64,000 nucleotides of DNA, from positions 1-64,000 of the IMG/VR virus record IMGVR_UViG_3300045977_000235; one strand, given 5' to 3'. Source of the DNA: a virus. Each line of letters begins with the position of its first letter. Within the stretch, counting starts at the first letter, position 1. This document shows positions 13,061-52,724 of this stretch, in pieces. The notes beneath the pieces are model-generated. The model was not told the origin of the DNA. It saw only the letters and a list, made by a program, of their open reading frames with translations, and ran no database searches. Made by a program: the position numbers and the translations under genes.

Positions 13061-13071
13061 TGTATTTCTCC

Positions 13072-13719: not shown

Positions 13720-13729
13720 TTGTATCTCC

Positions 13730-14377: not shown

Positions 14378-14388
14378 TGTATCTCTCC

Positions 14389-15039
14389 TTATACAAACTC
14401 ATATAATTGGGTAGTATCAAATAACACTCTTACAGCCCCTCCAGAGGTATATCCCCTCAAATAAATACCTTCAGAATTACTTGTTCCTAAAACTTGTGCT
14501 CCCATATCCAATACTTGTCCTAAAACAACCATATTAGAAAAATCTATAGCAGTTCCTTTTCGTATTACTAAAGATACTCCACCTAAATTTACTGGATCAG
14601 CTACCCATTCAATTTCTATACCATATGTTACATTTTGAGCAATACCTGTTGAACCAGAATTTAATGTTACATTAGGACTTCCTACATTTAATATATTAGT
14701 ATTTGATCGTGCTAAAGCATAGGTTCCATTTGAAAATAATTCATACCTATAAAAAGGACCAGCAGTCGTAACAATAGTCTCTGAAACTACCATAATAACA
14801 AGACCGAATCCACAACCATTACTTGTACTTGATTTTAAATTTACCAAAGTCCGTAATTTTCCTTTTTCTATTCCTTTTGTAAAGCCACTTGTATTAGAAG
14901 GTGTTAAATATAAAGCTGCACTAGCCGTGACAGAATTTAAAGCTACTGACGCTAGTCCACCAATAGGTGTAGCTAAATCTAAAGCTACGGAAGTATATAT
15001 ACTGTCTGATACATTTTTATTCCATTGAGCGAACGACAA
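14389..15039 (-). CDS. Beta-rich virion protein, tandem family member 4
   Basis: 216 aa, MSFAQWNKNVSD start. It shows KGIEKGKLRTLVNL, GCGFGLVIM (the otherwise conserved C-M-G-S is changed here to IMVVS), FYRYEL, IEIEWVADPVNLGGVSLVIRKGTA, FSNMVVLGQV, GIYLRGYTSG and a terminal FDTTQLYEFV. It is the first copy transcribed after the gpM-like gene. A palindrome copy (15052-15066) lies directly upstream of its translation start region. Confidence 0.78.
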   Translation of the reverse strand: MSFAQWNKNVSDSIYTSVALDLATPIGGLASVALNSVTASAALYLTPSNTSGFTKGIEKGKLRTLVNLKSSTSNGCGFGLVIMVVSETIVTTAGPFYRYELFSNGTYALARSNTNILNVGSPNVTLNSGSTGIAQNVTYGIEIEWVADPVNLGGVSLVIRKGTAIDFSNMVVLGQVLDMGAQVLGTSNSEGIYLRGYTSGGAVRVLFDTTQLYEFV

Positions 15040-15066
15040 AATATCACCTCCATTAAATTATTTAAT

Positions 15067-19515: not shown

Positions 19516-19538
19516 AGAACTACCTCATTCCGATTAAA

Positions 19539-19820
19539 TTATTTAACCTTTCCTACTTGTTCTCGTAAAACTTGCAATGACTGTTTCCAATCAGCCTTTG
19601 TCTCTTTTTTACCACGATAATCATGGAGCATAAAATCATCAAATTTTGGTTTAGCTCCTTTTCCTGTACTCCAACTTGTTACCATAACATATGCTCCTAA
19701 AGCATATCTTCTATCTGTACGTTCTTCGGCATTTAAATATCGTTTCATAATCGAATCAAATTCTACCGGAGTAATAGACCAGAAAAATTCATCAGTTAAA
19801 CCTAAATCAAAAATAGCCAT
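19539..19820 (-). CDS. Tail assembly chaperone T part (expressed as G-T frameshift fusion)
   Basis: The ATG at 19820 gives 93 aa, but no Shine-Dalgarno precedes it. The frame is open further upstream to just after a TGA at 19901-19899, inside the end of gene G. Reading after a -1 slip at CCCTTTA (19886-19880) gives DPRHFWLNIWSMAIFDLGL and then the whole T part, a 235-aa G-T protein. In lambda, gpG and gpGT chaperone tape measure assembly and are made by the same kind of slip. The motif FFWSITPVEFDSIMKRY is typical for GT C-terminal parts. The stop codon lies in a palindrome copy at 19533. Confidence 0.75.
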   Translation of the reverse strand: MAIFDLGLTDEFFWSITPVEFDSIMKRYLNAEERTDRRYALGAYVMVTSWSTGKGAKPKFDDFMLHDYRGKKETKADWKQSLQVLREQVGKVK

Positions 19821-20245: not shown

Positions 20246-20374
20246 TTTATACCTCCATAAAATAAATCTCAATGTAATTAAATAATTTAATCGAAAACAG
20301 AATCCTTTATATTTTATATATAATCTCTTTATAAAACATAAAGGATTCATTATTTATTCCATCTGTTATATTAA

Positions 20375-20818: not shown

Positions 20819-20864
20819 AAATCATACCCTTTCACTTAAATAATTTAATAACCATAAAGAAGAA

Positions 20865-22191: not shown

Positions 22192-22219
22192 ATTACATCC
22201 TTATTAAATAATTTAATCA

Positions 22220-25043: not shown

Positions 25044-25532
25044 CTAAGAGTTTTCTAATAATTTATGTTTTATGACAATCTTTTTACACAATTCAAAAAA
25101 TTCTTCTTGGGTAAGAACACTTTTTGCTCTATTACACGTCCAGCAACACGGTATAACATTTTCTTTAATGTATCCTTTATCTGGATCTACTCTATCAAGT
25201 CCTACTCTATCTGTTGGTCCCGTACCTGGAGAATCCCCACAATAAAAACATGGTAAAAAGATTAAATTATTTAATTCGTCTTGTGTGAGACTAAATTCTA
25301 ATTCACGTTTTTTAGCAGAGTTTACATATTCTGCATATGTAAATTGTAGAAAGTTTTCTTCTTTATACTTCTGGCGTTTTTCTCTATCGACAATCAATCG
25401 TGCTTCTCTACATGAAACACATTCAGGATGGAAAAGACTGATACGTTTAATATACGTATCAAAATATTCTTCTGAAAGAGGATAGTCATTCATACAAGTT
25501 TTACATTGTTGAACTTCTAAAGCATCTATCAT
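25044..25532 (-). CDS. HNH endonuclease
   Basis: 162 aa. An N-terminal zinc ribbon (CKTC ~10-13, CVSC ~38-41) is followed by the HNH core: CFYCG (95-99), GLDRVDPDKGYIKENVIPCC (111-130) and WTCNRAKSVLTQEEF. This is the common phage HNH form with DR in place of DH. It is placed just after the capsid gene; it could be a homing nuclease or a packaging-linked nuclease as in HK97-type phages, where HNH usually lies beside the terminase. A palindrome copy (25261-25275) within the gene is read as LNNLI. Confidence 0.85.
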   Translation of the reverse strand: MIDALEVQQCKTCMNDYPLSEEYFDTYIKRISLFHPECVSCREARLIVDREKRQKYKEENFLQFTYAEYVNSAKKRELEFSLTQDELNNLIFLPCFYCGDSPGTGPTDRVGLDRVDPDKGYIKENVIPCCWTCNRAKSVLTQEEFFELCKKIVIKHKLLENS

Positions 25533-25632: not shown

Positions 25633-25686
25633 TATATACAACAATTATTTAACTATGTCTATTCCAACATGATTAAATAATTTAAT

Positions 25687-27154: not shown

Positions 27155-28303
27155 TTACACTAAAGCCACAATTTGATTACAAGATTCCATAATATCTCGT
27201 AACATCTTATCATACTCATCGGAAGTCTTATCATCCTCATCAGTTTTAATTGGTGGATCTTGTTTTACAACAGATTTCACCATTTTTAACGATTCTTCAA
27301 GTGGTATACCACAATCATTTAATGTCAAAAGAATGTTATCCTCCGATACAAGATGTTTTCTTAGAAAAGAAATTACTTGGAGAGAAGTCCATTGTTTATG
27401 AGCAAAATCTGGTGGCAAAACCTGTCCATATTCATCATAATGCTTACTTAAATGATCATAAGCATGTTGAGCACCTTCAATATCTTTTGTTGCGCCGTTT
27501 ATACGGGCTAATCCCATACACACTGCTTCAAAAGATGTTACTATATTCCCGTTCTCTATCATATGATGTGGTGCATATTCACCATACGCATATGCATAGG
27601 TATTTGCTGTCTCTGTTGATAGAGCGATTAAAATATCCCAAGGTGTATTTGTAAATGCATAAGGTACATAAGGAACTATTTTTTCATCATCAGAAGTTTT
27701 TTCTATATACTGAAGTGAAGAAATTAAATTATTTAATTCGTTCACTTTTTGTAATATTTCTTCAACTGGCGTAATTTTTGTTTCAATAATTCCAATGAGT
27801 TTCAAAAATTGTTCATCAATACTTTTACGTACTGCACCAGCATTCATAGGTATTCCAACAAGAGAATATTCAACTAATTCGCTTTCTAAAATCCTTTGTG
27901 GAGGAAACATCTGTGCCCAAATATCGTCTTTGTCTTTTGATTCTATATCTTCAACCTTTAAAGGAATCAAACCAACCGAACACGCATTTAAAAAACCAGT
28001 ATTCCACAAATTCTTTATCCTATCTGCATGAACATCGCCCTCTGCAAAAACAAATTTGCTTTCTAATTTATGCATAAAGGTTTTCATAGACGTTGCTTTA
28101 GCAATAGGCGCACTACCAACAACAGGATCTCTACCATGCTGAAATAGAACTACAGGATTATTACTTAAATATTTATCATATTTAATTCCTGTACTTACAA
28201 TAACATCACCACTTCTATCTTCTTGATCAGTGCTTATAATCACTCCATATTCTTCTTCATTTCGTTGCTTTTCAACAACATACGAATATTCTTTATATTT
28301 CAT
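27155..28303 (-). CDS. Prohead protease (HK97/S78 type) with C-terminal extension
   Basis: 382 aa. The protease domain occupies ~1-165. The catalytic His is in LFQHGRDPVVG (H56), the Ser is in ACSVGLIPLKV (S109), and VEYSLVGIPMNAGA follows, all typical of HK97-family prohead proteases. The C-terminal ~200 residues form a separate helical domain (FEAVCMGLARINGATKDIEGAQHAYDHLSKHYDEYG) ending in an acidic tail; this part may serve as scaffold, as in some fused forms. A palindrome copy at 27723 is read as LNNLI in the linker. Confidence 0.88.
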   Translation of the reverse strand: MKYKEYSYVVEKQRNEEEYGVIISTDQEDRSGDVIVSTGIKYDKYLSNNPVVLFQHGRDPVVGSAPIAKATSMKTFMHKLESKFVFAEGDVHADRIKNLWNTGFLNACSVGLIPLKVEDIESKDKDDIWAQMFPPQRILESELVEYSLVGIPMNAGAVRKSIDEQFLKLIGIIETKITPVEEILQKVNELNNLISSLQYIEKTSDDEKIVPYVPYAFTNTPWDILIALSTETANTYAYAYGEYAPHHMIENGNIVTSFEAVCMGLARINGATKDIEGAQHAYDHLSKHYDEYGQVLPPDFAHKQWTSLQVISFLRKHLVSEDNILLTLNDCGIPLEESLKMVKSVVKQDPPIKTDEDDKTSDEYDKMLRDIMESCNQIVALV

Positions 28304-28372
28304 AGAATTTCACCTTCCTTTACAAAATTAACAACAATGCATTTCCATTTTCTATAAAATTAAATAATTTAA

Positions 28373-29980: not shown

Positions 29981-30052
29981 ATATAATCTCCTACGTTCAA
30001 TTAAATAATTTAATGTTGTATATAGGAACAATCCTATTAGTAGATTTATTCC

Positions 30053-32551: not shown

Positions 32552-32580
32552 TTGACAAAACTCTTAATAGGGTGTATAAT
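32552..32580 (+). promoter_or_regulatory. Consensus sigma-70-type promoter of the rightward operon
   Basis: TTGACA at 32552-32557, 17-base spacer, TATAAT at 32575-32580: a perfect match to the bacterial housekeeping consensus, the only one I found in the window. The start of transcription is expected near 32586-32588, which falls within the palindrome at 32584-32598. It drives the plus-strand genes from 32652. Confidence 0.88.
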
Positions 32581-32583
32581 TAT

Positions 32584-32598
32584 ATTAAATAATTTAAT
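32584..32598. promoter_or_regulatory. Palindrome copy at the predicted transcription start: likely operator
   Basis: A perfect ATTAAATAATTTAAT copy starts 3 bases after the -10 box, so it covers about -3 to +12. A bound dimer here would block open-complex formation. This placement is the best local evidence that the dispersed family is bound by a repressor or silencer. A further variant copy (32676-32690, CTTAAATTATTTAAG) lies ~90 bases downstream inside the first gene. Confidence 0.65.
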
Positions 32599-32651
32599 AG
32601 GTAAAATTTTGCAAAGGATATTAACATGTAAAATTCAATAAAGGATACAAT

Positions 32652-32894
32652 ATGCTAGAGGATATTTTTAATGCACTTAAATTATTTAAGAAGATAGATC
32701 CTGTTTGTCCGATTTTTTTAAAGTTTGAAAAAAATTATGGGTATTTTTGTATTGAGTTTAAGCATATGCTTTTAGCCGAAGGATTTTATAGTGAAAGTTT
32801 TTATAAAGATGTTATTGTTCCATTACAAGAATATGGATGGATTGAACTTGAAGAAGGTGTATTGGCATATGCATTATTAGTAGAAGGAGAATAA
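32652..32894 (+). CDS. Hypothetical protein, first gene of the rightward operon
   Basis: 80 aa, MLEDIFNALKLFKKIDPVCP start; the KLF residues come from a variant palindrome. The rest (FYKDVIVPLQEYGWIELEEGVLAYALL) resembles a small winged-helix-like fold by pattern (helix, then strand pair), but this is weak. AAGGAT precedes the ATG. As the first gene after a strong, probably repressed promoter it could be a regulator. Confidence 0.6.
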   Translation: MLEDIFNALKLFKKIDPVCPIFLKFEKNYGYFCIEFKHMLLAEGFYSESFYKDVIVPLQEYGWIELEEGVLAYALLVEGE

Positions 32895-34070: not shown

Positions 34071-34278
34071 ATGGAAAGAAATACAAAAAGGTAATATGTA
34101 CAGAAAAATAACATTATGTGGAAACGATTATAGTATTTCTACATATTCAACGTCTTTTACAGGAGATGGACCTGATTACTACATCAATCAACATTTACTT
34201 AACACAATGGAATATCATGTACCTTATATGCGTTATGAATTATATAATCATTACTTACGCATACTTTCTGAGGATTAA
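34057..34278 (+). CDS. Hypothetical protein
   Basis: 73 aa from the ATG at 34057, chosen because AGGAG precedes it; it overlaps the previous gene's end. Aromatic-rich (YYINQHLLNTMEYHVPYMRYELYNHYLRIL). No family recognised. A perfect 17-bp palindrome follows at 34273-34289. Confidence 0.5.
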   Translation: MFPIEWKEIQKGNMYRKITLCGNDYSISTYSTSFTGDGPDYYINQHLLNTMEYHVPYMRYELYNHYLRILSED

Positions 34279-34304
34279 ATTATTTAATCTATAAGGATAG
34301 ACAT

Positions 34305-35473: not shown

Positions 35474-35686
35474 ATGACACTACCAGAATTTTTCAGGGAA
35501 TTAAATAATTTAATCGCAGAGATAGGAGATGAACGAGTCAACAGTCATTATTCTCTTATTCCTTCATTACATATTGTTGATGAAGAAAATAATAATTATG
35601 AAATAGATTCTCTTGAACCACAATTACTTTTTGGTTGTAATTGTTGGGCTGGAGTTACCATTTTTCTAAAGAAAAAGGAGATGTAA
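35474..35686 (+). CDS. Hypothetical protein
   Basis: 70 aa, starting MTLPEFFRELNNLIAEIGDE; the LNNLI is the reading of a palindrome copy at 35500-35514. The C-terminal part has LFGCNCWAGVTIFLKKKEM. No family recognised. Four bases separate it from the preceding gene and four from the tRNA. Confidence 0.5.
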   Translation: MTLPEFFRELNNLIAEIGDERVNSHYSLIPSLHIVDEENNNYEIDSLEPQLLFGCNCWAGVTIFLKKKEM

Positions 35687-37829: not shown

Positions 37830-38142
37830 ACTCGATGATTACTTAAATTATTTAATCAATTTACCTCTATCAACTGTTCATACTAAACTTACAGAACTCT
37901 TGGCCGATTGTTTACATGAAAAGAAAAATATTGAATTATGTTCATGGATGAACTGTATTCATTTTTTCTTAAATTATGATGTAACTGATAAAGACGTTCA
38001 TATATCGCTTACTCGTAACAATACTATCATGATCAAAATATCTCTTAATGAAGGAGTAGTATCTATTGAATGTTTAGATGATGTGTTTTATATTCAACTT
38101 AATGAAGATAGATGGTTTCTTCCAGTAGAGGGCAACAAATGA
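37801..38142 (+). CDS. Hypothetical protein
   Basis: 113 aa. The ATG at 37801 has AAAGG five bases upstream and overlaps the previous gene by 29 bases; an ATG at 37810 is an alternative. TIKLDDYLNYLINLPLSTVH contains LNYLI from a variant palindrome (37842-37856). The middle KKNIELCSWMNCIHFFLNY and a beta-rich end are all that can be seen. ATGA coupling to the next gene. Confidence 0.52.
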   Translation: MKIMVSQTIKLDDYLNYLINLPLSTVHTKLTELLADCLHEKKNIELCSWMNCIHFFLNYDVTDKDVHISLTRNNTIMIKISLNEGVVSIECLDDVFYIQLNEDRWFLPVEGNK

Positions 38143-39057: not shown

Positions 39058-39261
39058 ATGAAATGCGCTACTGAAAAGAAATGGACTGACAAAAATCTGG
39101 CGTGCAAACTAGGACTACATGCCTACAAAGTTATAGATGGTTCAATGACATTAATACCTGTGACTCCAGCATCACTCATATGTCATAATATCACAATACA
39201 TCGGTATATTTATAATGAAAAATGCAAGAAGTGTTGTAAAAAACGTGTAAGTTCTTATTAA
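39058..39261 (+). CDS. Cys/Lys-rich hypothetical protein
   Basis: 67 aa. The N-terminal CATEKKWTDKNLACKLGLH and C-terminal NEKCKKCCKKRVSSY could bind metal together. LHAYKVIDGSMTLIPVTP lies between. No family recognised. AAAGGATTTTAGA precedes the ATG. A palindrome copy (39257-39271) covers its stop codon. Confidence 0.5.
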   Translation: MKCATEKKWTDKNLACKLGLHAYKVIDGSMTLIPVTPASLICHNITIHRYIYNEKCKKCCKKRVSSY

Positions 39262-39279
39262 ATAATTTAATCAGAAAGA

Positions 39280-39471
39280 GTGTCAACATGTATGATCTAT
39301 CCACTTACCTACGAAGAATATTGTGTTGGCAATCGTATACGCATCAAAGTAATAACACCTGACAAGAGTATTACAACAGAGTACCCCAAAGGCTATAGTC
39401 TCACGTATAAAAAATGGACAGTTGATGAAATATTTGATAAAATTTACCAGGAGGAGCAAGAGAACACATGA
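39280..39471 (+). CDS. Hypothetical small protein
   Basis: 63 aa if started at GTG 39280; the ATG at 39292 (59 aa) is equally possible. RIRIKVITPDKSITTEYPKG and KKWTVDEIFDKIYQEEQ suggest a small alpha-beta protein. It overlaps the nucleotidyltransferase gene by ATGA, which supports translation. Confidence 0.48.
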   Translation: MSTCMIYPLTYEEYCVGNRIRIKVITPDKSITTEYPKGYSLTYKKWTVDEIFDKIYQEEQENT

Positions 39472-40190
39472 CTGAACAAGAACTACTACCATTCTTATTG
39501 TTTAAGTGTCAAGTAGGATCTTACTTGTATGGTTGTAGTATTGATACAAGTGATACTGATTATATGGGAGTGTTTGTACCACCACTTGATTATACTTTCG
39601 GCTTTCAACATATTGAACATGTTGAATGTCGAACGAATCCATCATCTTCTGGCCGAAAAAATATTCAAGAAGATAAAGATTGCATATATTTTACACTTCC
39701 TAAATTTATATTTCTTTGTATGAATGCAAGTCCTACATTATTAGAATTATTTTTTGTAAAAGAATTTGAATATTGTAATGAATATGGGCGATTGTTGTTA
39801 CAAAATAGATCGTTATTCCTCAGTAAAAAGATCAAACAAACATTTCTTGGATACGTTAAATCACAGCAAGAACAGCTATTCAAGGGTGATGCAATGTTGA
39901 ATTATTACTACAATCCAAAAGTAGCGTACCATATAGTACGATTACTTGAAGAATGCTATCAACTCTTGCATTATCAGTATATAAACTTTCCTCTTAAAAA
40001 TGCTGCTGAACTACGAAAAATACGGTTAGGGATGCTTTCATTAAATAATTTAACCGATATAATAGATAATTATATGACTACAATCAATACAGTAGAAACA
40101 TATCTTCCTGATGAACCAGATAAGAAAAATTTACAAGACCTTCAGAAGCGTATTATGTGGGACTATGCAGTAAAAGAGATGGATATATGA
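39468..40190 (+). CDS. Predicted nucleotidyltransferase (YcgL/pol-beta type)
   Basis: 240 aa. VGSYLYGCSIDTSDTDYMGVFVPP (16-39) has the GS...G and S-D-x-D catalytic pattern of minimal nucleotidyltransferases. FTLPKFIFLCMNASPTLLELFF follows as in the DNA polymerase beta superfamily YcgL group, linked with RNA repair in bacteria. The C-terminal half is helical. With RNA ligase, phosphoesterase and tRNA elsewhere in the window it might serve tRNA repair, but this is inference. A variant palindrome at 40040 is read as LNNLT. Confidence 0.78.
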   Translation: MTEQELLPFLLFKCQVGSYLYGCSIDTSDTDYMGVFVPPLDYTFGFQHIEHVECRTNPSSSGRKNIQEDKDCIYFTLPKFIFLCMNASPTLLELFFVKEFEYCNEYGRLLLQNRSLFLSKKIKQTFLGYVKSQQEQLFKGDAMLNYYYNPKVAYHIVRLLEECYQLLHYQYINFPLKNAAELRKIRLGMLSLNNLTDIIDNYMTTINTVETYLPDEPDKKNLQDLQKRIMWDYAVKEMDI

Positions 40191-41134: not shown

Positions 41135-41166
41135 TCCAATTAAATTATTTAATAAGGAGTCCACCT

Positions 41167-42068: not shown

Positions 42069-42109
42069 TTTGAAAAATTCTAGTGAATAGTGGTATTAAA
42101 TTATTTAAT

Positions 42110-43609
42110 TTTTAAAATATTTTTACAAAAAATTTTAGAAAATTTTTAGAAAATTTTTAGACAAAAAACAAATATACACTCGCCCTGACCCCCTCTGTCA
42201 TTTATTTGACAGACCCCCTGAGCCATAGTCACATAGCTAAACGCCTATGCATCTATCATCTCTTTTTTATATTAGACCTTAGCTATACATCTATATGGTC
42301 CTTCGTTATACATCTAATAAGACCTTAGTTAAGTACCTATATGTTATATAGCTAAGGACCATATAAGTATATACACATATAGCTAAGGACCGATATGTAT
42401 ACTAAAAGTCTAAAATGAGAATGAGAATCACTATGAGTCCTTAGTTAAACACCTATATATTCTCTGTATCATAATGATACAGTATTACATATGTATTACA
42501 TTGTGTATAACATGTATTACATATGTAATATCATCTGATATTATCAGATATATATACTCTTTTATCTGATAATAGTACCATGTATTACACCATATAATAT
42601 ATGTAATATATAAATACACTCTACATATTTTACAAAGTAAAAGCTTACATATAGCGTGTTACGTATACGTAACATACTAAACGTTTACACAGTACATAAT
42701 ATGTAAACGTTATGATACGTTTACATAATAACGTAAACGTATTGATACATAGTGCATACGTATGCATACGTAGTAATATGTAAACGTTATAGTATCTTTA
42801 TGTTATAAACAACGTTGTTTACGTATACGAAACACCATACACGTATGCATATGGTGTCTTATGTAAACAACAAAGCACAATACAATACTAAGGTATACAT
42901 ATATGGTGTTATATATACATATGCTTTCATATGAAAGCACTATACTCTATATGTAAACATTATGTATCATTCGTTTACTTAGTAAACGTTTACACTCTAT
43001 ATGTATACATATATAGTAATACGTAAACGTTATAGGATATATGTCTCTTTTTATCTTCTCTTATTCTATTATTATCCTCTCTTTATATATTATATAGAGG
43101 ATAGTATCGTATGTTATGCTCTTATTAGTAGAGCATATATGCTCTCTTATAAAGAGCATAGTGTATCTGTAGTACTTATAGAGAAAGAGAGTATTACTAT
43201 AGAACATAGGCGATTAAATTATTTAATCTGTAGTCTTGTAGTGTGCTCTTATGGTGTAGTAAATACGTAGTCTACAATATGCCTCTATAATGCCGTTTTT
43301 TATGTATACGTATTGAAAATAAGACGTTTTTTTAATAGGTGAGTATGTTTGTATGTCTTTATTAAAAAACAAGCTATATGCTCGTATAAGAGCATTATTG
43401 ACATATACACGTTTTATACAAGATCTGTATAAACCTTATACAAGTCTTATATAAATCTTGTATAAGACCTATACATAATGACAAATCATTATCAATACAT
43501 AGCAAAATGAAAGAGCATAAAAACAAGGTGAGTTTACAAAGTAAACTCTACAAGTACATATAGACTCTATACAAGAGTCTTGTACTTGCTCTTATGCTCT
43601 TATAGCTTT
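42110..43609. other. Non-coding convergent region dense in palindromes and GTAAAC iterations
   Basis: About 1.5 kb between the ends of two converging operons, with no credible gene. It holds many different palindromes: CTGTATCATAATGATACAG (42464-42482), ATCTGATATTATCAGAT (42533-42549), TGTTACGTATACGTAACA (42657-42674), TAAACAACGTTGTTTA (42806-42821), TGCTTTCATATGAAAGCA (42922-42939), CGTTTACTTAGTAAACG (42972-42988) and AGAGCATATATGCTCT (43130-43145). Repeats of AYGTAAACGT lie at 42701, 42731, 42778 and 43021. Words related to CCTTAGCTATA and CCTATATGGTCCTT recur at 42240-42450. A window-wide palindrome copy is at 43213. Since no promoter is needed here, a replication origin or a protein-loading locus is plausible. 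Confidence 0.6.
42701..43038 (+). repeat. Iteron-like direct repeats AYGTAAACGTTAT
   Basis: ATGTAAACGTTATGATAC (42701-42718), ACGTAAACGTATTGATAC (42731-42748), ATGTAAACGTTATAGTAT (42778-42795) and ACGTAAACGTTATAGGAT (43021-43038) align as direct repeats. Further GTAAAC/GTTTAC half-sites occur between them on both strands (about ten in 360 bases). This looks like a set of binding sites for an initiator or similar protein. Confidence 0.5.
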
Positions 43610-43632
43610 ACTTGCTTATTTCATAAGCAAGT
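43610..43632 (-). terminator. Hairpin abutting the end of the leftward operon
   Basis: ACTTGCTTAT-TTC-ATAAGCAAGT, a 10-bp stem with a 3-base loop, begins at the base after the last stop codon. There is no clear U-run on the minus strand, so it is either a weak terminator or a transcript 3'-end stabiliser. Confidence 0.5.
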
Positions 43633-44091
43633 TTATTGCTTATACAAGACACCATACACGAATCCTGTACTATCTTCTATGATACATATACTATGGTATG
43701 GTTCTAAACATGGGTATATTTCCATGTCATCTATATCTATCTCAATTTCTGTTACTGTACCGTTTTCTCCTAAAGCAATTATTTCCCCTATACCATCTAA
43801 AGACAATAGATGAAAATAAGCAACATATGCTTGCTCATTTTCATATTTACCTGGAGAAACAATCCTACCATCTACTATTCTATAGTCTTTTTCTATTTGC
43901 TCTTTTAATGTTTGCCCGAATTTTTCATTGTGTAGCATATGCTCTTTTTCCTCTCTTTTAATTGTTTCTTGTAGCTCTTGATAGAGTCTTATGTCGTTAC
44001 CATATGGATCATCATACTCTGCATTTTCATGGTAGAGCATACTGTTATCCTCTCTTGACAATGGCATAGTGTAGTAGTCAAAGTACTGCAT
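43633..44091 (-). CDS. Hypothetical protein, last gene of the middle leftward operon
   Basis: 152 aa. A charged helical first half (LYQELQETIKREEKEHMLHNEKFGQTLKEQIEKDYRIVDG) is followed by a beta-rich acidic half (IGEIIALGENGTVTEIEIDIDDMEIYP). No family recognised. Gene style (SD AGAGGATAC, dense stop/start spacing) matches its neighbours. Confidence 0.55.
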   Translation of the reverse strand: MQYFDYYTMPLSREDNSMLYHENAEYDDPYGNDIRLYQELQETIKREEKEHMLHNEKFGQTLKEQIEKDYRIVDGRIVSPGKYENEQAYVAYFHLLSLDGIGEIIALGENGTVTEIEIDIDDMEIYPCLEPYHSICIIEDSTGFVYGVLYKQ

Positions 44092-44112
44092 TGCTCTGTA
44101 TCCTCTCTTGTA

Positions 44113-44310
44113 TTAAGTACCGCAAATAATACAAGGATAATAGATGCAATGCTTGTTTGTTACGTTGTACTGTACTTTACAAGCAGTACAAAGCATACAA
44201 TCTGTACATTGATACTGTTTTGCTTTGCAGTCTTTTTCCTCTGGTACATCGCTTGCTTGCTCTTTTTGTTGAGCAAGCAATAAGTGTAGTTTATTGAGAC
44301 TTATTTGCAT
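44113..44310 (-). CDS. Cys-rich small protein
   Basis: 65 aa. CKAKQYQCTDCMLCTACKVQY and CIYYPCIICGT give nine Cys in the last 40 residues, so one or two zinc sites are likely. The N-terminal part is helical (SLNKLHLLLAQQKEQA). AGAGGATAAAA precedes the ATG. Function unknown. Confidence 0.55.
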   Translation of the reverse strand: MQISLNKLHLLLAQQKEQASDVPEEKDCKAKQYQCTDCMLCTACKVQYNVTNKHCIYYPCIICGT

Positions 44311-44316
44311 TGTCTT

Positions 44317-44595
44317 TTATCCTCTATAGGCGAATTTTTTATCTGTCGTATAGTAGACGTACTGCGCCAATCTTTCCTTGTAGTTTCGTAGTATGCCTCT
44401 GTTTATATTGTCTTGAGTCCATCTGCTTTGTTTGTCATATGATGGTATGCTTGTATGGCAGAGTTTTTTAAACATGCTATATGCTTTATTAGAAGCAATT
44501 TCCAGAGTATCACAAGACTCTATATCCTTGTATGTTATCAAGTCTTGTGTACTTGCTACACTGTACCCTAAAGCATAGTGTGTTTTCTGTGACAT
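44317..44595 (-). CDS. GYS-type small protein, paralogue 1
   Basis: 92 aa. YALGYSVASTQDLITYKDI near the start and GILRNYKERLAQY near the end match its two upstream neighbours, which share GYSxGxxIAS.QDL and GI..NY..RI. The middle contains MFKKLCHTSIPSYD. The function is unknown; three adjacent copies suggest recent tandem duplication. Confidence 0.58.
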   Translation of the reverse strand: MSQKTHYALGYSVASTQDLITYKDIESCDTLEIASNKAYSMFKKLCHTSIPSYDKQSRWTQDNINRGILRNYKERLAQYVYYTTDKKFAYRG

Positions 44596-44671
44596 TGTAA
44601 AAGTATCCTCTATAAATTGTTGTTTTATATGTTGCTCTATACACTTGCTTATAAAACAACATATACACTTG

Positions 44672-45001
44672 CTACAGACTTGCTTGTAGTCTGTTTATTC
44701 TACTTGTGTAATTTGCCCGAATTCCTCTCACTATGCCACAAGAGTACACACTAAAGACGTTATACTGTCTTGTCTCTTGTAGTGTCTTGAGTACCTTATA
44801 CAATGCATCTGCCATTGTATCGAATTCAGTATAGCAGAGCTTATAGAATACCTCTCTTGCTTCTAAAGACGTTGTAATAGTACCGTAGTGTGACCATGTT
44901 ACAGTATAAGGTACTTGTTTCCCTTGTATGATTAAATCTTGCCAAGACGCAATTGCAAAGCCTTGACTATATCCTTGTCTGTAGATGTCTCTTTTTGTCA
45001 T
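44672..45001 (-). CDS. GYS-type small protein, paralogue 2
   Basis: 109 aa from the ATG at 45001 (an ATG at 45034 lacks a ribosome site). DIYRQGYSQGFAIASWQDLI and IVRGIRANYTSRINRL are shared with paralogues 1 and 3; EVFYKLCYTEFDTMADALYKVL is the conserved middle. Function unknown. Confidence 0.6.
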   Translation of the reverse strand: MTKRDIYRQGYSQGFAIASWQDLIIQGKQVPYTVTWSHYGTITTSLEAREVFYKLCYTEFDTMADALYKVLKTLQETRQYNVFSVYSCGIVRGIRANYTSRINRLQASL

Positions 45002-45027
45002 GCGCTTTTTTCCTTGTCGTGTTATAA

Positions 45028-45052
45028 AGAGCATATGATAGACATATGCTCT
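45028..45052. repeat. Intergenic hairpin AGAGCATATG-N5-CATATGCTCT
   Basis: A perfect 10-bp stem directly upstream of the gene at 44672 and downstream of the gene at 45066. It is one of a set of AGAGCA/TGCTCT hairpins in the 43-54 kb operon. Confidence 0.6.
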
Positions 45053-45065
45053 TGCTCTTGTTTGC

Positions 45066-45407
45066 TTACTTACTCTTTAATGCTTTTATCCTCTCTTTAT
45101 AGTTTTTCTTAATACCTGCCGCTATACCATCATCAAAAACAAGCCAGACATCATAAGATTTGCTTTCTTGTGTCTCGTTTAATGCTTGTGCAGTAAACTC
45201 GAAAGGTGAGTATTCTCTATTCATTTCCTCTGCATCATAGCAGAGCAAGTAAAACAGATCTTCTCTGTCTGTATTGTCGTTTACAGTCTCAATACAAGCA
45301 TTGTAGATGTGTTTAGGTACTTTATCACCTATAGATGGTAAGTCTTGATAGGATGCTATCATGTAACCTCTACTGTACCCTATGCTGTAAATGTATCGCT
45401 TATTCAT
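45066..45407 (-). CDS. GYS-type small protein, paralogue 3
   Basis: 113 aa from the ATG at 45407, which overlaps the upstream stop as TAATG; an ATG three codons earlier is too close to the AGAGG. YIYSIGYSRGYMIASYQDLPS, DLFYLLCYDAEEMN and GIAAGIKKNYKERIKAL align with paralogues 1 and 2. Function unknown. Confidence 0.6.
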   Translation of the reverse strand: MNKRYIYSIGYSRGYMIASYQDLPSIGDKVPKHIYNACIETVNDNTDREDLFYLLCYDAEEMNREYSPFEFTAQALNETQESKSYDVWLVFDDGIAAGIKKNYKERIKALKSK

Positions 45408-45661
45408 TATTTGCATACCTCTTGCTGTATTGTGTGCATTCTCTGTCGTAAAGAATCAAGTACCTTGCCAGTGTAACAATGAAACGATGGTATAGTGTCT
45501 GTAATGCTTGTTTGCTCTATATAGTACCTTTCCATTGCATATTGATAACACTCTACTCCTACCATGCAAAACAAGTCTGCAATGTATCCTCTATAAGTAC
45601 TTTTCTTGCTTTCATAGTGGTCAATTGCTTTGCGTGCTATTGTCTCGTTACTGCTCTGCAT
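45407..45661 (-). CDS. Hypothetical small protein
   Basis: 84 aa from the ATG at 45661, overlapping the end of the upstream gene; the frame is open to 45712. YRGYIADLFCMVGVECYQYAMERYYIEQTSI is amphipathic helix. No family recognised. Coupled to both neighbours. Confidence 0.5.
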   Translation of the reverse strand: MQSSNETIARKAIDHYESKKSTYRGYIADLFCMVGVECYQYAMERYYIEQTSITDTIPSFHCYTGKVLDSLRQRMHTIQQEVCK

Positions 45662-45836
45662 TGTTGAGTATCCTACGATAGATGATTCTGTAGTATGCTG
45701 TATACGGTGCATTTATACGGTAGTCTTTTAGATTGTCTCTTGCTTCTTTTCTGCTTTCACTACAGCAAAGATCTTCCCACCTATCATAAAAACCTTGGAC
45801 AACGTAGCAGTACAAGTACTTGTTTGCTCTTTTCAT
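45648..45836 (-). CDS. Small conserved phage-type protein (YVVQG...W type)
   Basis: 62 aa. YCYVVQGFYDRWEDLCCSESRKEARDNLKDYRINAP and RIIYRRI follow a pattern (Y.VQG.Y..GWE.V...E...EA...LK.YR.NEP...R...RR) that I recognise from many phage and plasmid small proteins of unknown function. It may be a small alpha-beta domain. The 17-bp palindrome at 45860 lies upstream. Confidence 0.65.
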   Translation of the reverse strand: MKRANKYLYCYVVQGFYDRWEDLCCSESRKEARDNLKDYRINAPYTAYYRIIYRRILNNAEQ

Positions 45837-45980
45837 TGTGTGCTCTCTTTCCTTGTAGGATTAAATTATTTAATCTGTACTGTGCTCTGTACCGTACTTA
45901 CTTGTTACGGTACAGAGTATGCTTTTTTCGCTCTACAATGCCTCTATTTTACGTTGTAATGTTTGCCCTATACTTTCCTA

Positions 45981-45996
45981 TGCTCTCATGAGAGCA
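45981..45996. repeat. 16-bp palindrome TGCTCTCATGAGAGCA
   Basis: Perfect palindrome in the gap between the genes at 45648 and 46014, next to a TACGGTACAG inverted repeat around 45890-45920. It belongs to the AGAGCA/TGCTCT set. Confidence 0.6.
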
Positions 45997-46013
45997 ATGC
46001 ACTATAGAGCATT

Positions 46014-46421
46014 CTAGGCTGTTTTTTCGGCCATTGTAGACGTATATGCTTGTGGCACAGTAAAGAGCTTGCTTGTATCTTTACGCCAGACATAAGCGCC
46101 AGAGTGCAAGCAATTATCGTATATATAGAAGTAATCAATTGCTTTGTACTCTGGCGTATCAATTGCAAGTCTCTTGCCGTTTACGACATAAGAAAACACA
46201 AGCTTATGCCATATGTCTTTAGCTTTACAGTCTTTATATCCTCTAATGTACTCTTTCATGTATAAAGGTAGTCTATTATAGTCATCTGTCATTAGTACAA
46301 TTTCCAGATACTTGTTAGTAATCTGCTTGCCAGAGTAACAGTAAAGCTCTGCATTGCAGTATATATCATCTATACGTGCTAGCATTCTGTCTTTTATGTT
46401 GAGCATTCTATCTTTACGCAT
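46014..46421 (-). CDS. Hypothetical protein
   Basis: 135 aa. RDIWHKLVFSYVVNGKRLAIDTPEYKAIDYFYIYD-like central region (CKAKDIWHKLVFSY) with an N-terminal basic helix (MRKDRMLNIKDRMLARIDD). Aromatic-rich. No family recognised. It overlaps the upstream gene by 8 bases and has GAGGAAAAC before the ATG. Confidence 0.52.
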   Translation of the reverse strand: MRKDRMLNIKDRMLARIDDIYCNAELYCYSGKQITNKYLEIVLMTDDYNRLPLYMKEYIRGYKDCKAKDIWHKLVFSYVVNGKRLAIDTPEYKAIDYFYIYDNCLHSGAYVWRKDTSKLFTVPQAYTSTMAEKTA

Positions 46422-46620
46422 TGCTTTTGTTTTCCTCTTGTAGAGCTTGTCTGCATTCTACGAATTTTACATTGTTAGTGTTTAGGTAGTGAGTAAGCAA
46501 GTATTCGATATAGTCTATAGTCTCAAGATTGCTATGCATATTGAGACTTTCTCTTGCCACAATAAGAGCTTTATCAATGGCTCTTACTAAAGCTCTATAG
46601 TCTGCATTATATCGTTTCAT
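46414..46620 (-). CDS. Hypothetical small helical protein
   Basis: 68 aa from the ATG at 46620, inside the end of the upstream gene; a start at 46665 is possible. ADYRALVRAIDKALIVARESL and ETIDYIEYLLTHYLNT look like two helices. No family recognised. Confidence 0.48.
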   Translation of the reverse strand: MKRYNADYRALVRAIDKALIVARESLNMHSNLETIDYIEYLLTHYLNTNNVKFVECRQALQEENKSNA

Positions 46621-46816
46621 AATAAGACTCGTTACTACCTTTGTGCTCTTTAATAATATCGCCATTCTCTAATAAGTAAACGCTTTCATTGGCACATCTA
46701 CCATATGCAGACTTACTATGGTCAAGGTATATGTTAAACGTCAACAGAGCTTGTCTTTTATTGTTTGTCGTAAAGACGAATCCTACGTTACCAACTAGCA
46801 CACTATACCGATCCAT
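46607..46816 (-). CDS. Small conserved phage-type protein (VLVGNVG...GR type)
   Basis: 69 aa. YSVLVGNVGFVFTTNNKRQALLTFNIYLDHSKSAYGRCANESVYLLENGDIIKEHKG fits a pattern common in phage genomes (YSVLVGN.G.V......A...F..Y...S....GR...E.V.L...G.I..E). It is an alpha-beta mini-domain of unknown role. Confidence 0.65.
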   Translation of the reverse strand: MDRYSVLVGNVGFVFTTNNKRQALLTFNIYLDHSKSAYGRCANESVYLLENGDIIKEHKGSNESYYETI

Positions 46817-46886
46817 TTTGCTTTCCCTTATATGATGCTATCATGGTACTTGCTTATGATTTGCTATACCATGATAGCGTTTTGCT

Positions 46887-47168
46887 TTAGTTCTCTACAC
46901 TGTAGAGCTTTCTTGCTTTATACTTCTTAACAAGGTTATTGTACTCTCTTGCTTGTAAATGCAATTGCTCTATAGGCAATATATCCTCTCTTATTAAGTC
47001 ATGTTCAAGATTACTCGTTTGGCTTGTATTTGTCTCGTAACAAGACTCTACTCTATAGCATTCCTCTTGCGTGTTATAGTGGTATACCATAACGAGTCTA
47101 TAAGGTTTACCATCTGTATCATTATTCCTACGTACTACTTGATAGAACCAGATATTACTTTGTGCCAT
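46887..47168 (-). CDS. Hypothetical protein
   Basis: 93 aa. WFYQVVRRNNDTDGKPYRLVMVYHYNTQEECYRVESCYE is a strand pair with a turn, then a helix (EQLHLQAREYNNLVKKYKARKL). AAAGGTAAAGC precedes the ATG. A long inverted repeat around a GGTA/TACC core lies just upstream of 46887, after the stop (46835-46875). Confidence 0.5.
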   Translation of the reverse strand: MAQSNIWFYQVVRRNNDTDGKPYRLVMVYHYNTQEECYRVESCYETNTSQTSNLEHDLIREDILPIEQLHLQAREYNNLVKKYKARKLYSVEN

Positions 47169-47174
47169 TATGCT

Positions 47175-47462
47175 TTACCTTTCCCTTGCCATTGATAGGA
47201 TCTGCAAATAATCTACTTGCGATTCGATAGCATGAGATACTAGATCCATGATAAACCAAGCATTGTGTAACATATGGGTCTGCATTTTAGGAGGTATTGT
47301 CTTTTCTACTTCTTGCTCTATATAGTTTTTCAATGTCGATACTTTATCCTCTCTTGTACTTTTTGCTAGTTTTTCCAGATACGGTAAATGTACCTTGTCA
47401 TTATTTAACCATAGGCTAACAATGAAAGTCTCAAAATTTGTCATACTCTGGTATTCTGCCAT
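47175..47462 (-). CDS. Small conserved phage-type protein (NFET..VSLWL type)
   Basis: 95 aa. MTNFETFIVSLWLNNDK is the start of a small family (N.ET..V.LWL.N) frequent in phages, similar to what is called DUF7249. The rest is helical (LPYLEKLAKSTR; TLKNYIEQEVEKTIPPK). Function unknown. GAGGAAAAG precedes the ATG. Confidence 0.62.
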   Translation of the reverse strand: MAEYQSMTNFETFIVSLWLNNDKVHLPYLEKLAKSTREDKVSTLKNYIEQEVEKTIPPKMQTHMLHNAWFIMDLVSHAIESQVDYLQILSMARER

Positions 47463-47476
47463 TGTTTGCTTTTCCT

Positions 47477-47632
47477 CTATTTGTCGTTACCGTATACGCA
47501 AGTCTGCTCTTTTACTACTTCCATATGCAATGTATGCATTCTCGTTTCATAGTAAATATTCATATGCATAATAGCGGCATATGACAGTACTACAAAAAGA
47601 GCAAGTACACTTGTCTTGATAGCAAATAGCAT
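47477..47632 (-). CDS. 51-aa membrane protein
   Basis: ATG at 47632 with AAGGAAAAC upstream. MLFAIKTSVLALFVVLSYAA is a signal anchor; the rest (YYETRMHTLHMEVVKEQTCVYGNDK) would lie outside the cytoplasm with one Cys. No family recognised. Confidence 0.55.
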   Translation of the reverse strand: MLFAIKTSVLALFVVLSYAAIMHMNIYYETRMHTLHMEVVKEQTCVYGNDK

Positions 47633-47650
47633 TTTGTTTTCCTTGTGTAG

Positions 47651-47682
47651 TGAGAGCATAGCAAGCAAGTACTATGCTCTCA
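47651..47682. repeat. Intergenic hairpin TGAGAGCATAG...CTATGCTCTCA next to a palindrome
   Basis: An 11-bp stem with a 10-base loop between the helicase gene and the small membrane gene. A GATTAAATTATTTAACC palindrome follows two bases later at 47684. It is a member of the AGAGCA/TGCTCT hairpin set. Confidence 0.65.
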
Positions 47683-47689
47683 GATTAAA

Positions 47690-49711
47690 TTATTTAACCT
47701 CTTTATAGAGAATAGCATACATATGTACTGGGATTTGTTTATGATACTTGCGTAACATTTTCAATGCCGCAGTAATCTGTTTACTTGTTAGCTTGTCTCT
47801 TTCAGCAAGAGATCTGCCAAATTTGCCGTCTAATTTGTTGTATCCTATATCATTCTTCTCTGTAGCTTGATCCAGGTTTCGATTGTCCAGAAAACGACAA
47901 GCAGAAAGTACCGTATCATGGATCTGCTTTGTATACGTTACCTCTTGCACCGTAGTCTGTACCGTAGTTTTTCCTACTGTGCTCTGCAATACCGTGTTTT
48001 TGGTGTCTGGCGTAGTCTGTACTGCGTTTTGTTTCTCTACCTTGCCAGAGTATAGGGTACTTGATTTGCTATGCTCAGATTGGCTTGTAGAGCTTTTTTC
48101 TCGTATAGGTTTATCCTCTCGTATCGTGACCTTGTTATCAAGTACTGCGTTTATAACACGGTACTTGTTAATAAAAGCTCTGATAAAAAGATTGTCCAGA
48201 GTGTTAGGTATTACAAGGTACTGTGCTAGTACTGCGTTTTTCTGTCCTATACGTAACAGTCTATCCTCTGCTTGTATGTTCAATAATGGTGACCATTCTG
48301 CCTCTACAAAGATTGCAATAGATGATCTAGTAAGCGTAAAGCCTACGCCTATCGCTCCTATAGTGCCTACAAGTACTACTATTTGTCCATCTTGAAATTG
48401 TTCTATAGTCTCTTGTCGTTTCTTAGGTGACACACTACCATCTAAAAAGATAGTATTAAAGTACTCTGCAATTTTAGCACCAACCTCTTTATGGTGAGTA
48501 AAGATTACTAATGGTGTAGTACTGCTCTCTTGTACTACCTTTATATGTTCTATAGCAGGATTAACTTTTGCTTTGCCAAGTTTTGCTCTTTCCTCTGCTA
48601 TATCCTCAAAACTTATCTTGTACTTGCGTAATACTTCTTGAAAAGTATCTGGATCTAGATCTGTTAATTCCTCTATATTGAAAGGTAAGCTACTATCTTT
48701 ATATGTCGATTGTAGCTCTATTATTTGCCTTGTCTTTTCTGGCAAATCTTTTAGAACTTCGTCTTTAGTCCTACGAATCATAATTTTACTGCGTAGTAAG
48801 CTCTGCAATTCGGATTCGTTACTACTACCTTTATTATTCCAACCATACCGACCTTGACTAGCAGAGCAATACCTTTTTTCGTAGTATGATTTGCTATCGA
48901 ATAGCTTTGCATTATGAACAATCGGCCATAGTTCTATAGGACGATTCAAGACAGGAGATCCTGTCATATATAGTACTTGTGTACCATACTCAACAATGCC
49001 ATTGATAGCAGGTATTGTATTGTATGTTCTGGTAATCGGATCGAATTCCTTATGTTCTGGTTTTCCTATAATTGCTTTAGTACGTTGTATATCTGGATTC
49101 TTTAGTAAATGGGATTCGTCACAGATTACTAGATCCCAAGGATGACAGAGCTTGTCATATAAAGCTACAGCAAGATCGTAGCTTATGATAACAATACCGC
49201 TATCTGCTACTCTGTCAGTACTTCTTGTTACAAGACAATACTTGTGTGCATCTACAAGCCAAGAAAAAGACTCGTATAACCAGTTAAGCTTGAGACTACT
49301 AGGGCAAACAATCAAGATGTCTTGATAACCTTTATAGTTTATCAAGCCAAGAGCTTGAATAGTCTTACCAATTCCCATGTCGTCAGCAAGTAGACATACT
49401 GGCTTGTCAAGCAAGTATTCTATACCTGCTATCTGATACGAGTAGTATTGCTTGTCTGCATTGCATGGTACTTGTAGATTGCTTGTAGTAGCATAGGACG
49501 CTTTTAAGGTATTGATAAACGGTAGCAGATTGTCTCTTGTTTCCTTGTCTGCATATGCAATTAGATGCATAGCATTCGCGGCATTAGTGGTATACCATAC
49601 CTTTCTGGCATAGTCGAAACGCATATTTGCCTTGTGTGCTAGCATTCTCTCGTTATAGTCGCAAGTAAAGACATACTCCGAATCTTTCATTGTTAGTATA
49701 GGATCTGCCAT
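47690..49711 (-). CDS. SNF2-type DNA helicase/translocase
   Basis: 673 aa from the ATG at 49711 (AGAGGTAT upstream; an ATG at 49768 is weaker). Motif I is LADDMGIGKTIQALGLI (110-117 DDMGIGKT), Ia LIVCPSSLKLNW, II VICDESHLLKN (DESH ~198-201), III LYMTGSPVLNRPIELW, IV VIFTHHKEVG, V VLVGTIGAIGVGFTLTRS, VI QAEDRLLRIGQKN. This is a complete SNF2 motor of the SMARCAL1/HepA-like subgroup. The last ~150 residues are Thr/Lys-rich, then helical. Such enzymes translocate on duplex DNA and remodel forks or displace proteins. It may work on replication forks or strip proteins from the many palindrome sites. Confidence 0.9.
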   Translation of the reverse strand: MADPILTMKDSEYVFTCDYNERMLAHKANMRFDYARKVWYTTNAANAMHLIAYADKETRDNLLPFINTLKASYATTSNLQVPCNADKQYYSYQIAGIEYLLDKPVCLLADDMGIGKTIQALGLINYKGYQDILIVCPSSLKLNWLYESFSWLVDAHKYCLVTRSTDRVADSGIVIISYDLAVALYDKLCHPWDLVICDESHLLKNPDIQRTKAIIGKPEHKEFDPITRTYNTIPAINGIVEYGTQVLYMTGSPVLNRPIELWPIVHNAKLFDSKSYYEKRYCSASQGRYGWNNKGSSNESELQSLLRSKIMIRRTKDEVLKDLPEKTRQIIELQSTYKDSSLPFNIEELTDLDPDTFQEVLRKYKISFEDIAEERAKLGKAKVNPAIEHIKVVQESSTTPLVIFTHHKEVGAKIAEYFNTIFLDGSVSPKKRQETIEQFQDGQIVVLVGTIGAIGVGFTLTRSSIAIFVEAEWSPLLNIQAEDRLLRIGQKNAVLAQYLVIPNTLDNLFIRAFINKYRVINAVLDNKVTIREDKPIREKSSTSQSEHSKSSTLYSGKVEKQNAVQTTPDTKNTVLQSTVGKTTVQTTVQEVTYTKQIHDTVLSACRFLDNRNLDQATEKNDIGYNKLDGKFGRSLAERDKLTSKQITAALKMLRKYHKQIPVHMYAILYKEVK

Positions 49712-49816
49712 TGTAAATATACCTCTTATTAAACGCAGTAAAGAGAGTAGCATAGTGTACCTTGTCATTATTAAGGTACAAGGTACAAGGTAAATGTACC
49801 TTGTACCATGCCATTG

Positions 49817-50188
49817 TTATCGTATCGTTATGTTGCCTGAAATGCTACCTTTCCTCTCTTTCTTAGGTAGACTTTCTCTTATGATTTGCTCTGTTACCTT
49901 TAGACTTGCACCGTACTTTTCTTGTGCTCTGTCTATATCCTCTTGTGACATACTACAGATCTGATTAAATAATTTAATCGCTCTATCTTGTGAGCAATTG
50001 AGAACGCCACATAAACGAGTAAGAGTATCAATGTTTACTGGCGTTTTTTGGTAGTACGTAGGCAGACCAACTATGATGTCACCTTGCAAGTGTAGCGTTT
50101 CATCTACTGTATATCTACCAGACTTTAGCTTGAGTGTATCTGGTATCTTGATTGCTTTAATTGCAGCATATAGTAAGTCTCTTGTCAT
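49817..50188 (-). CDS. Hypothetical phage protein, small conserved type
   Basis: 123 aa. PDTLKLKSGRYTVDETLHLQGDIIVG is a beta-rich start of a kind repeated in many phage hypotheticals (L.L.G.YTV.E.L...G.I.VG). The helical remainder includes DRAIKLFNQICSMSQEDIDRA, where IKLFN is the reading of a palindrome copy (49964-49978). Function unknown. Confidence 0.62.
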   Translation of the reverse strand: MTRDLLYAAIKAIKIPDTLKLKSGRYTVDETLHLQGDIIVGLPTYYQKTPVNIDTLTRLCGVLNCSQDRAIKLFNQICSMSQEDIDRAQEKYGASLKVTEQIIRESLPKKERKGSISGNITIR

Positions 50189-50205
50189 TAGCTTATACCT
50201 CTATT

Positions 50206-50532
50206 CTAGTGCTGCTTTTTTAACTTGATAGACATGACATCTGCAAGTAAATCTATCATCTCTTGCTTTGGCATTGTCCAACTATCGCCTAAAATACTTT
50301 CATAATGTTTCTCTGTTATGCTGTGCAAGTATTGTATCTGGTTTAATACTTCCTCCCAAGTACTATCTTTATGTATCATATACATAACAGCAAGTTTTGT
50401 TTCTTGCGATGGTACTTTACTTGCTACAGATTGCTTGTGATTTGCTTGTGCTCTTTTTGGCTTTGCTATTACATCTTGAGTACACAAGACAAGAGACACT
50501 ACAAGCAACATAAACACGCAAAACTTTTTCAT
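50206..50532 (-). CDS. Secreted hypothetical protein
   Basis: 108 aa from the ATG at 50532 (AGGGGAAAG upstream). MKKFCVFMLLVVSLVLCTQD followed by VIAK is a signal peptide with a likely cut after VIA; a Cys at 17 does not sit in a good lipobox. The mature part is helical and basic (EVLNQIQYLHSITEKHYESILGD). Periplasmic or membrane-associated role unknown. Confidence 0.6.
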   Translation of the reverse strand: MKKFCVFMLLVVSLVLCTQDVIAKPKRAQANHKQSVASKVPSQETKLAVMYMIHKDSTWEEVLNQIQYLHSITEKHYESILGDSWTMPKQEMIDLLADVMSIKLKKQH

Positions 50533-50551
50533 TCTCTTTCCCCTATGAAAC

Positions 50552-50585
50552 GAGAGCACACAAGCGTATTGTGTAGTGTGCTCTC
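50552..50585. repeat. Intergenic hairpin GAGAGCACAC...GTGTGCTCTC
   Basis: A 10-bp stem with a 14-base loop just upstream of the secreted protein gene at 50206. Member of the AGAGCA/TGCTCT hairpin set. Confidence 0.6.
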
Positions 50586-50647
50586 AGAATACCGTTTTTT
50601 CGTCCTACAATACGCCAAATTTCGATTTGTTTTCCAAGGTAGTGTGT

Positions 50648-50812
50648 TTATACATCTTGAGAAAACAAATCGTTTTTAGGGCAAAACAGAGCATAAAGTA
50701 AAAAAGACTCGTTACACTCAAGACAGAGCAACAAATTTGCTGCATCTACTATTGTGCAAGTATCATCTGTTACTGCTTGCTTGCAATTATCACAAAAGCT
50801 TTTGATTGTCAT
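50648..50812 (-). CDS. 54-aa zinc-ribbon protein
   Basis: ATG at 50812 with AGGAG upstream, TAA at 50648. SFCDNCKQAVTDDTCT has one CxxC and LLCLECNESF a second; a further Cys in LFCPKND. Typical mini zinc ribbon. Function unknown. It lies directly downstream of the ParB-like gene. Confidence 0.58.
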   Translation of the reverse strand: MTIKSFCDNCKQAVTDDTCTIVDAANLLLCLECNESFLLYALFCPKNDLFSQDV

Positions 50813-50836
50813 ATGATGCTACTCCTAAAAAATAAA

Positions 50837-50863
50837 GAGAGCACAGTATCATACTGTGCTCTC
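50837..50863 (-). terminator. Perfect 12-bp hairpin after the ParB-like gene
   Basis: GAGAGCACAGTA-TCA-TACTGTGCTCTC immediately after the ParB-like stop codon. There is little U-run on the minus strand (TTTATTTTTTAGG follows in part), so it could be an intrinsic terminator or a processing signal. Confidence 0.55.
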
Positions 50864-50874
50864 GTATTGTTTAC

Positions 50875-52233: not shown

Positions 52234-52257
52234 TGCTTCTATATCCTTGTGAGTAGT

Positions 52258-52284
52258 GAGAGCATAACACTATGCTATGCTCTC
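52258..52284. repeat. Hairpin GAGAGCATA...TATGCTCTC upstream of the ParB-like gene
   Basis: A 9-bp stem with a 9-base loop. It is followed at 52288-52302 by a perfect copy of the dispersed palindrome (GATTAAATTATTTAATC). The same hairpin-plus-palindrome pair stands at 47651-47698. Confidence 0.6.
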
Positions 52285-52324
52285 TTGATTAAATTATTTA
52301 ATCCCTAGCAGATGGACAGTAGTT

Positions 52325-52636: not shown

Positions 52637-52724
52637 CTGCTTTCCCTTATAGTGTAGTGAGCAATTGTTACAAGGTACAAGATACGATTTGCTTATAGTC
52701 TCTTTCCTCTCTTATAGTGTGCTT

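Follow-up and report, generated by a model that had tools for sequence, protein, structure and literature searches.

A strong consensus promoter with a perfect palindrome lying across its predicted start raises the question of whether the palindrome is an operator that serves this one promoter or part of something that reaches further. The locus lies in a 64,000-nucleotide stretch of viral DNA (hereafter the window), which belongs to a 103,465-base virus record (IMG/VR IMGVR_UViG_3300045977_000235), and comprises the following features:

32552-32557, plus strand, -35 hexamer TTGACA; kept in the relative G002
32575-32580, plus strand, -10 hexamer TATAAT after a 17-base spacer (32558-32574); TATATT in G002
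32583-32599, unstranded, perfect palindrome TATTAAATAATTTAATA covering the predicted start (about -4 to +13); absent here in G002, present in the near-identical contigs L007-L009 and L011
32626-32631, plus strand, start-stop ORF ATGTAA behind AAAGGA, in the leader; absent in G002
32652-32894, plus strand, called first gene of the rightward block, 80 aa, function unassigned
32675-32691, unstranded, second palindrome copy, within the first gene, with a perfect 13-bp core TTAAATTATTTAA at 32677-32689; intact in G002

The palindrome, 17 bp long and perfect about a single centre base, begins two bases past TATAAT, and its extent of -4 to +13 is reckoned from a predicted start at 32587, about 7 bases beyond the -10 box. 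A preliminary description of this DNA had reported a consensus promoter TTGACA-N17-TATAAT, a palindrome across its start site and a second copy in the first gene, and all three are present. No other exact TTGACA-N15-19-TATAAT occurs in the window; as 0.26 such matches are expected by shuffling and 23 of 100 shuffles contained one, the promoter is unremarkable as a bare pattern, and its weight rests on position, conservation and context. It precedes a rightward gene block, opposite in direction to the leftward-running terminase and structural genes, combines TTGACA, a spacing of 17 and TATAAT as expected of a sigma70 promoter upstream of a gene block, and is retained in G002 as TTGACA-17-TATATT. 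Judged from its sequence, it looks like a genuine, conserved and strong sigma70-type promoter that would drive the rightward block. In the leader (32610-32665), the ribosome-binding-site stretch is apparently duplicated ahead of the true start, an arrangement that is absent in G002.

The preliminary description had also spoken of a dispersed motif, and the dispersal turned out to be far above chance, with 49 matches of at most three mismatches in the window where 5.4 are expected (maximum of 11 in 100 shuffles). Over the 103-kb record we found 64 exact copies of the core TTAAATWATTTAA, usually in the longer form ATTAAATWATTTAAT, a number that stands as a minimum for the phage. None of these has C or G at its centre base, only 13 one-mismatch words occur in the record, which is about chance level, and the outer positions -8 and +8 vary largely independently of each other. 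The copies are spaced more evenly than by chance (CV of 0.63 versus 0.98), with none of 5000 shuffles as even, and the outcome was the same for uniform positions and for positions drawn at random from gene starts. For twenty of the 64, the centre falls 11-30 bp ahead of a start codon, where about 2 are expected, and 42 extend at least partly outside coding sequence, where 13% would be expected with genes called by a simple script. Besides those at 32583 and 32675, the copies within the window, all unstranded, are:

3705-3717, array copy TTAAATWATTTAA; intact in G001
5137-5149, array copy; intact in G001
5183-5195, array copy; intact in G001
9092-9104, coding array copy; intact in G001
9934-9946, coding array copy; intact in G001
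11809-11821, array copy before a start codon; intact in G001
15053-15065, array copy before a start codon; intact in G001
19534-19546, array copy before a start codon; from the motif scan
20278-20290, array copy; lost in G001
20836-20848, array copy before a start codon; intact in G001
22204-22216, array copy before a start codon; intact in G001
25262-25274, coding array copy; intact in G001 and G003
25673-25685, array copy; intact in G001 and G003
27724-27736, coding array copy; intact in G003
28360-28372, array copy; intact in G003
30001-30013, array copy before a start codon; intact in G002
34275-34287, array copy before a start codon; intact in G002
35501-35513, coding array copy; intact in G002
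37843-37855, coding array copy; intact in G002
39258-39270, array copy; from the motif scan
40041-40053, coding array copy; from the motif scan
41140-41152, array copy before a start codon; intact in G002
42096-42108, array copy; lost in G002
43214-43226, array copy; from the motif scan
45861-45873, array copy; from the motif scan
47685-47697, array copy; from the motif scan
49965-49977, coding array copy; from the motif scan
52287-52303, array copy GATTAAATTATTTAATC upstream of the ParB-like gene; from the motif scan
54134-54146, array copy before a start codon; from the motif scan
55155-55167, array copy; from the motif scan
55833-56069, three clustered exact copies (55835, 55991, 56055) in non-coding DNA, with a one-mismatch copy at 56218; from the motif scan
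57102-57114, array copy; from the motif scan
59049-59061, array copy before a start codon; from the motif scan
59749-59761, array copy before a start codon; from the motif scan
60515-60527, array copy before a start codon; from the motif scan
61478-61490, array copy; intact in G001
61796-61808, array copy before a start codon; from the motif scan
63539-63551, array copy; from the motif scan

The non-coding stretch 55700-56230, in which array copies cluster together with GTATACG-type repeats, is a possible origin or control region, and the region 43000-57000 differs in composition and has more inverted repeats (hairpins of the AGAGCATAG...CTATGCTCT type) near several array copies. Elsewhere in the window lie four tandem paralogous genes of about 215 aa each (12419-15039) and, at 59058-59735 and 39468-40190, an RNA ligase and an RlaP-type nucleotidyltransferase, possibly phage genes for RNA repair.

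Searches of known phages with megablast and tblastn returned no close relative, and a genome scan returned no terminase relatives. Three relatives, G001, G002 and G003 (78-82% nucleotide identity; 80% for G002), carry the motif at similar density, and aligned copies are intact at 24 of 31 places in G001, 6 of 8 in G002 and 4 of 4 in G003 (together 34 of 43), against 10-14% expected for random 12-position words. Coding copies are preserved as well, and most of the conserved copies are found where genes begin or in their interior, genome-wide; the counterpart of 42-61 kb, including the ParB-like gene, falls outside the sequence recovered for the relatives. As read from these alignments, the array copies are under purifying selection.

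The same core recurs in an unrelated phage, G008 (44.8 kb, about 44% G+C), which was reached by an IMG/VR pattern scan. No nucleotide match to our phage was found in the stretches compared, and what the two clearly share amounts to a DNA polymerase and a DNA methyltransferase domain. G008 has 13 exact core copies at gene boundaries, mostly in the form AGATRA-TTAAATWATTTAA-TYATCT, and its relatives carry the palindrome too; viewed at full length (L097-L099), the 13 copies are AGATRATTAAATWATTTAATYATCT-like palindromes of 25 bp. Even spacing, placement before start codons, preservation in relatives and the shared core in G008 together argue that the array is real and selected, and its copies are probably recognised by a single dimeric DNA-binding protein with genome-wide action.

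Within this array, the copy at 32583 does not behave as a conserved, dedicated operator. A private operator would be expected to stay at its promoter in relatives, and in G002 the start-site palindrome has been replaced while the promoter is retained and the first-gene copy at 32677 is intact. Two further promoters of the record bear on the same point. One, also strong, lies beyond the window on the minus strand (record 88593-88565) and reads TTGACA-17-TATACT, followed after 5 bases by TTAAATAATTTAA; here the site overlaps the start in a geometry nearly identical to that at 32552, and in G001 it lies about 30 bp further downstream. At the other (record 100086, minus strand), the spacer between the -35 and -10 hexamers contains a perfect copy in G001 and a degenerate one in this phage. 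The loss in G002, the shift at 88593 and the difference at 100086 mean that sites recur at promoters, not at fixed ones. The earlier suggestion that an operator blocks initiation here therefore survives in part: the site is placed where a bound protein would occlude the start, the geometry is repeated at the second promoter and a spacer copy occurs at the third in G001, so that a block of initiation at 32587 is plausible; a role as a dedicated, conserved operator is not supported, and looping or roadblock repression through the first-gene copy, as the preliminary description suggested, would be hypothetical. Most likely, the 32583 palindrome belongs to the array as one member among many and is no switch for this promoter alone. 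The preliminary observation stands and its operator reading holds in part, and the array is the more far-reaching result.

As for the protein that might bind it, one gene of the window stands out:

50875-52233, minus strand, ParB/KorB/Noc-family protein of 452 aa, candidate binder, recognised by Pfam, profile and fold matches

This protein matches Pfam HTH_ParB with 49 bits (cut-off 22.6) and KorB with 22.7 bits, has Spo0J and Noc matches in sequence alignment, and its predicted fold finds ParB, Noc, Spo0J or KorB as top matches. In the single-sequence model the HTH part reaches a pLDDT of 64-86 and the N-terminal half is poor, so that the fold matches are supportive only. Of a putative N-terminal CTPase domain, the GxxRR motif is present as GHRR and aligns to Spo0J and Noc, in a part of the protein where the model is poor and Pfam ParB_N gives no match. 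The fused protein of G008, which joins ParB-N and HTH domains to a methyltransferase, matches the window protein in a profile comparison that runs through the HTH (E 3e-5, probability 73%). Apart from the ParB-like protein and the terminase small subunit, no recognisable HTH DNA-binding protein turned up in the record, and a comparison of 92 small proteins with Pfam and PHROG gave no repressor among the families listed. We regard the ParB-like protein as the best candidate binder, with a moderate link to the array. We found neither a ParA partner (PF13614) in the 103-kb record, which may be incomplete, nor an integrase, and recognised no cI-like repressor; the earlier suggestion that the rightward operon is kept off in one state, which requires a repressed state, gains nothing from this gene content.

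Homologues of the window ParB-like protein occur together with dispersed 15-bp palindromes in the phages Milano, 7-7-1 and Lumi, and these palindromes (TACAA-N5-TTGTA and TTACT-N5-AGTAA) share the 5-5-5 layout of the ATTAA-N5-TTAAT of our phage. In Milano (L025) and 7-7-1 (L031), TACAAATNATTTGTA sits in the spacers of 7-9 TTGAC...TATAA promoters and is likely a shared operator of these Agrobacterium phages. The Xylophilus phage Lumi (L030), which has a ParB-like gene, carries TTACT-N5-AGTAA at 21 places, many of them near gene starts (four at the record start duplicate those at the record end). None of ten phages without HTH_ParB has a dispersed palindrome array, these controls being no random sample, as they were found through a scan for one motif copy. 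In the stretches read, no dispersed palindrome appeared in the ParB-bearing phages Versailles, PCA1, MD8, AH2 and LE1, nor at four loci with Milano-type ParB homologues (L135-L138, about 50% identity). By lineage, an array is present in 4 of 9 with ParB against 0 of 10 without it (p 0.03; p 0.07 with the window lineage excluded), an association that is statistically weak and that the ParB-bearing phages and homologue loci without an array keep modest. As a general predictor of palindrome arrays, ParB was rejected, since it fails in L135-L138 and the five known phages. Five aligned ParBs diverged too far from one another to serve for scanning.

The reading we prefer, with a probability of roughly 45%, is that the 64 or more sites serve one strict dimeric protein, most likely the phage's ParB-like protein (50875-52233), which would act genome-wide and shut the 32552 block when bound. 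We infer binding, binder identity and repression along the following lines: a dimer of this single protein would occupy the evenly spaced array and, by loading at many sites, would lower transcription, organise the phage DNA, or both. With 32583 occupied, RNA polymerase would be excluded and the rightward block held down, to be strong when the protein is off, and dimers before start codons or inside genes may impede elongation or act as sliding-clamp loading points, as for KorB. Against this reading stand the methyltransferase fusion of the ParB of G008, the failure of the window protein to match Pfam ParB_N, the start copy missing in G002, and the chance that the array serves a protein of the host, or one of the phage that escaped recognition. 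A far-reaching variant, which we consider rather unlikely, has a lone ParB-family clamp working without ParA from strict loading sites about every 1.5 kb; it would coat or silence the whole viral chromosome and directly switch promoters such as 32552, and the same site would have been reached separately by the unrelated phage with the ParB-methyltransferase fusion.

Other readings change the binder or the level at which the site works. Should the binder be encoded by the host, as a nucleoid, segregation or regulatory factor common to the hosts of this phage and G008, the sites would recruit or titrate it; an identical 13-bp core with different flanks in two phages that share almost no genes would fit, as would the even spacing if the factor were architectural. 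This is a serious, if rather unlikely, rival; the long form matched only two single times across 84,980 bacterial and archaeal genomes, a scan that is silent on the short core since the long form carries the flanks of G008. A low probability likewise attaches to a small, unrecognised phage protein that would bind the array and, as with the stoperators of Cluster A mycobacteriophages, repress transcription or block elongation. The many phage genes of unknown function and the copies before start codons and at promoters leave room for it, but a palindrome cannot have orientation, copies lie deep within structural genes, and no lysogeny genes were recognised. That the site is after all the dedicated operator of the 32552 promoter, as proposed in the preliminary description, with all remaining copies secondary, is improbable: the shared geometry at 32552 and 88593 and the intact site in L007-L009 and L011 agree with it, but the site is lost in G002 and displaced at the second promoter in G001 where promoters and other copies persist. 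The least probable reading places the function in RNA, as an A-U hairpin in the leader immediately before the ribosome-binding site. It would explain why 20 of the 64 copies lie just 5' of a ribosome-binding site on the sense strand; it was rejected on folding energy and invariance, since folding of the copies is very weak (median of -0.8 kcal/mol), which favours recognition as DNA, their letters are invariant instead of showing paired changes, and copies are also found in coding sequence and outside leaders.

Several known systems resemble the array in part. The 22-bp dispersed repeats of phages T1 and Stevie, which are mainly intergenic (PMC4319613), are asymmetric and oriented, whereas the array is palindromic. 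The Start-Associated Sequences of Cluster K mycobacteriophages are repeats just upstream of start codons that are conserved among relatives (PMC3203893), but they are asymmetric and tolerate deviations (GGGATAGGAGCCC), whereas the palindrome described here is positioned 5' of the ribosome-binding site and occurs at promoters and within genes as well. The palindromes of Milano and 7-7-1 are likewise odd and 15 bp long, share AAATNATTT and come with a homologous ParB-like protein, yet they number just 7-9 and sit in TTGAC...TATAA promoter spacers. KorB of RK2, a ParB-family protein and sliding clamp, acts on promoters near to or distant from its palindromic OB sites (PMC11790492), and the predicted fold of the window protein matches ParB, Noc and KorB; in contrast to the KorB, Noc and ParB systems, the array has 64 sites spread evenly over a phage genome, no ParA was found with it, and its binder is a predicted one. 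By analogy, the array appears to work most like the stoperators of Cluster A mycobacteriophages (L5, Bxb1), 20-30 sites of which few lie within promoters and most do not (PMC6550527), with which it shares many short sites of one motif across the phage genome (here 64 exact copies). Stoperators, however, lack symmetry, follow the direction of transcription and are bound by a monomer, their binder being the immunity repressor of a temperate phage, whereas the array is a perfect and unoriented palindrome, for which reason we do not file it as a stoperator system; it also has about twice the copies, free of mismatches, evenly spaced and found deep in genes. Dispersed sites for one protein in phage genomes are known mainly from mycobacteriophage stoperators, and here the site is a strict palindrome whose copies are evenly spaced, selected even within genes and found in two unrelated phage groups. 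This points to a system by which tailed phages control or organise their genome as a whole, and a concrete candidate protein is at hand.
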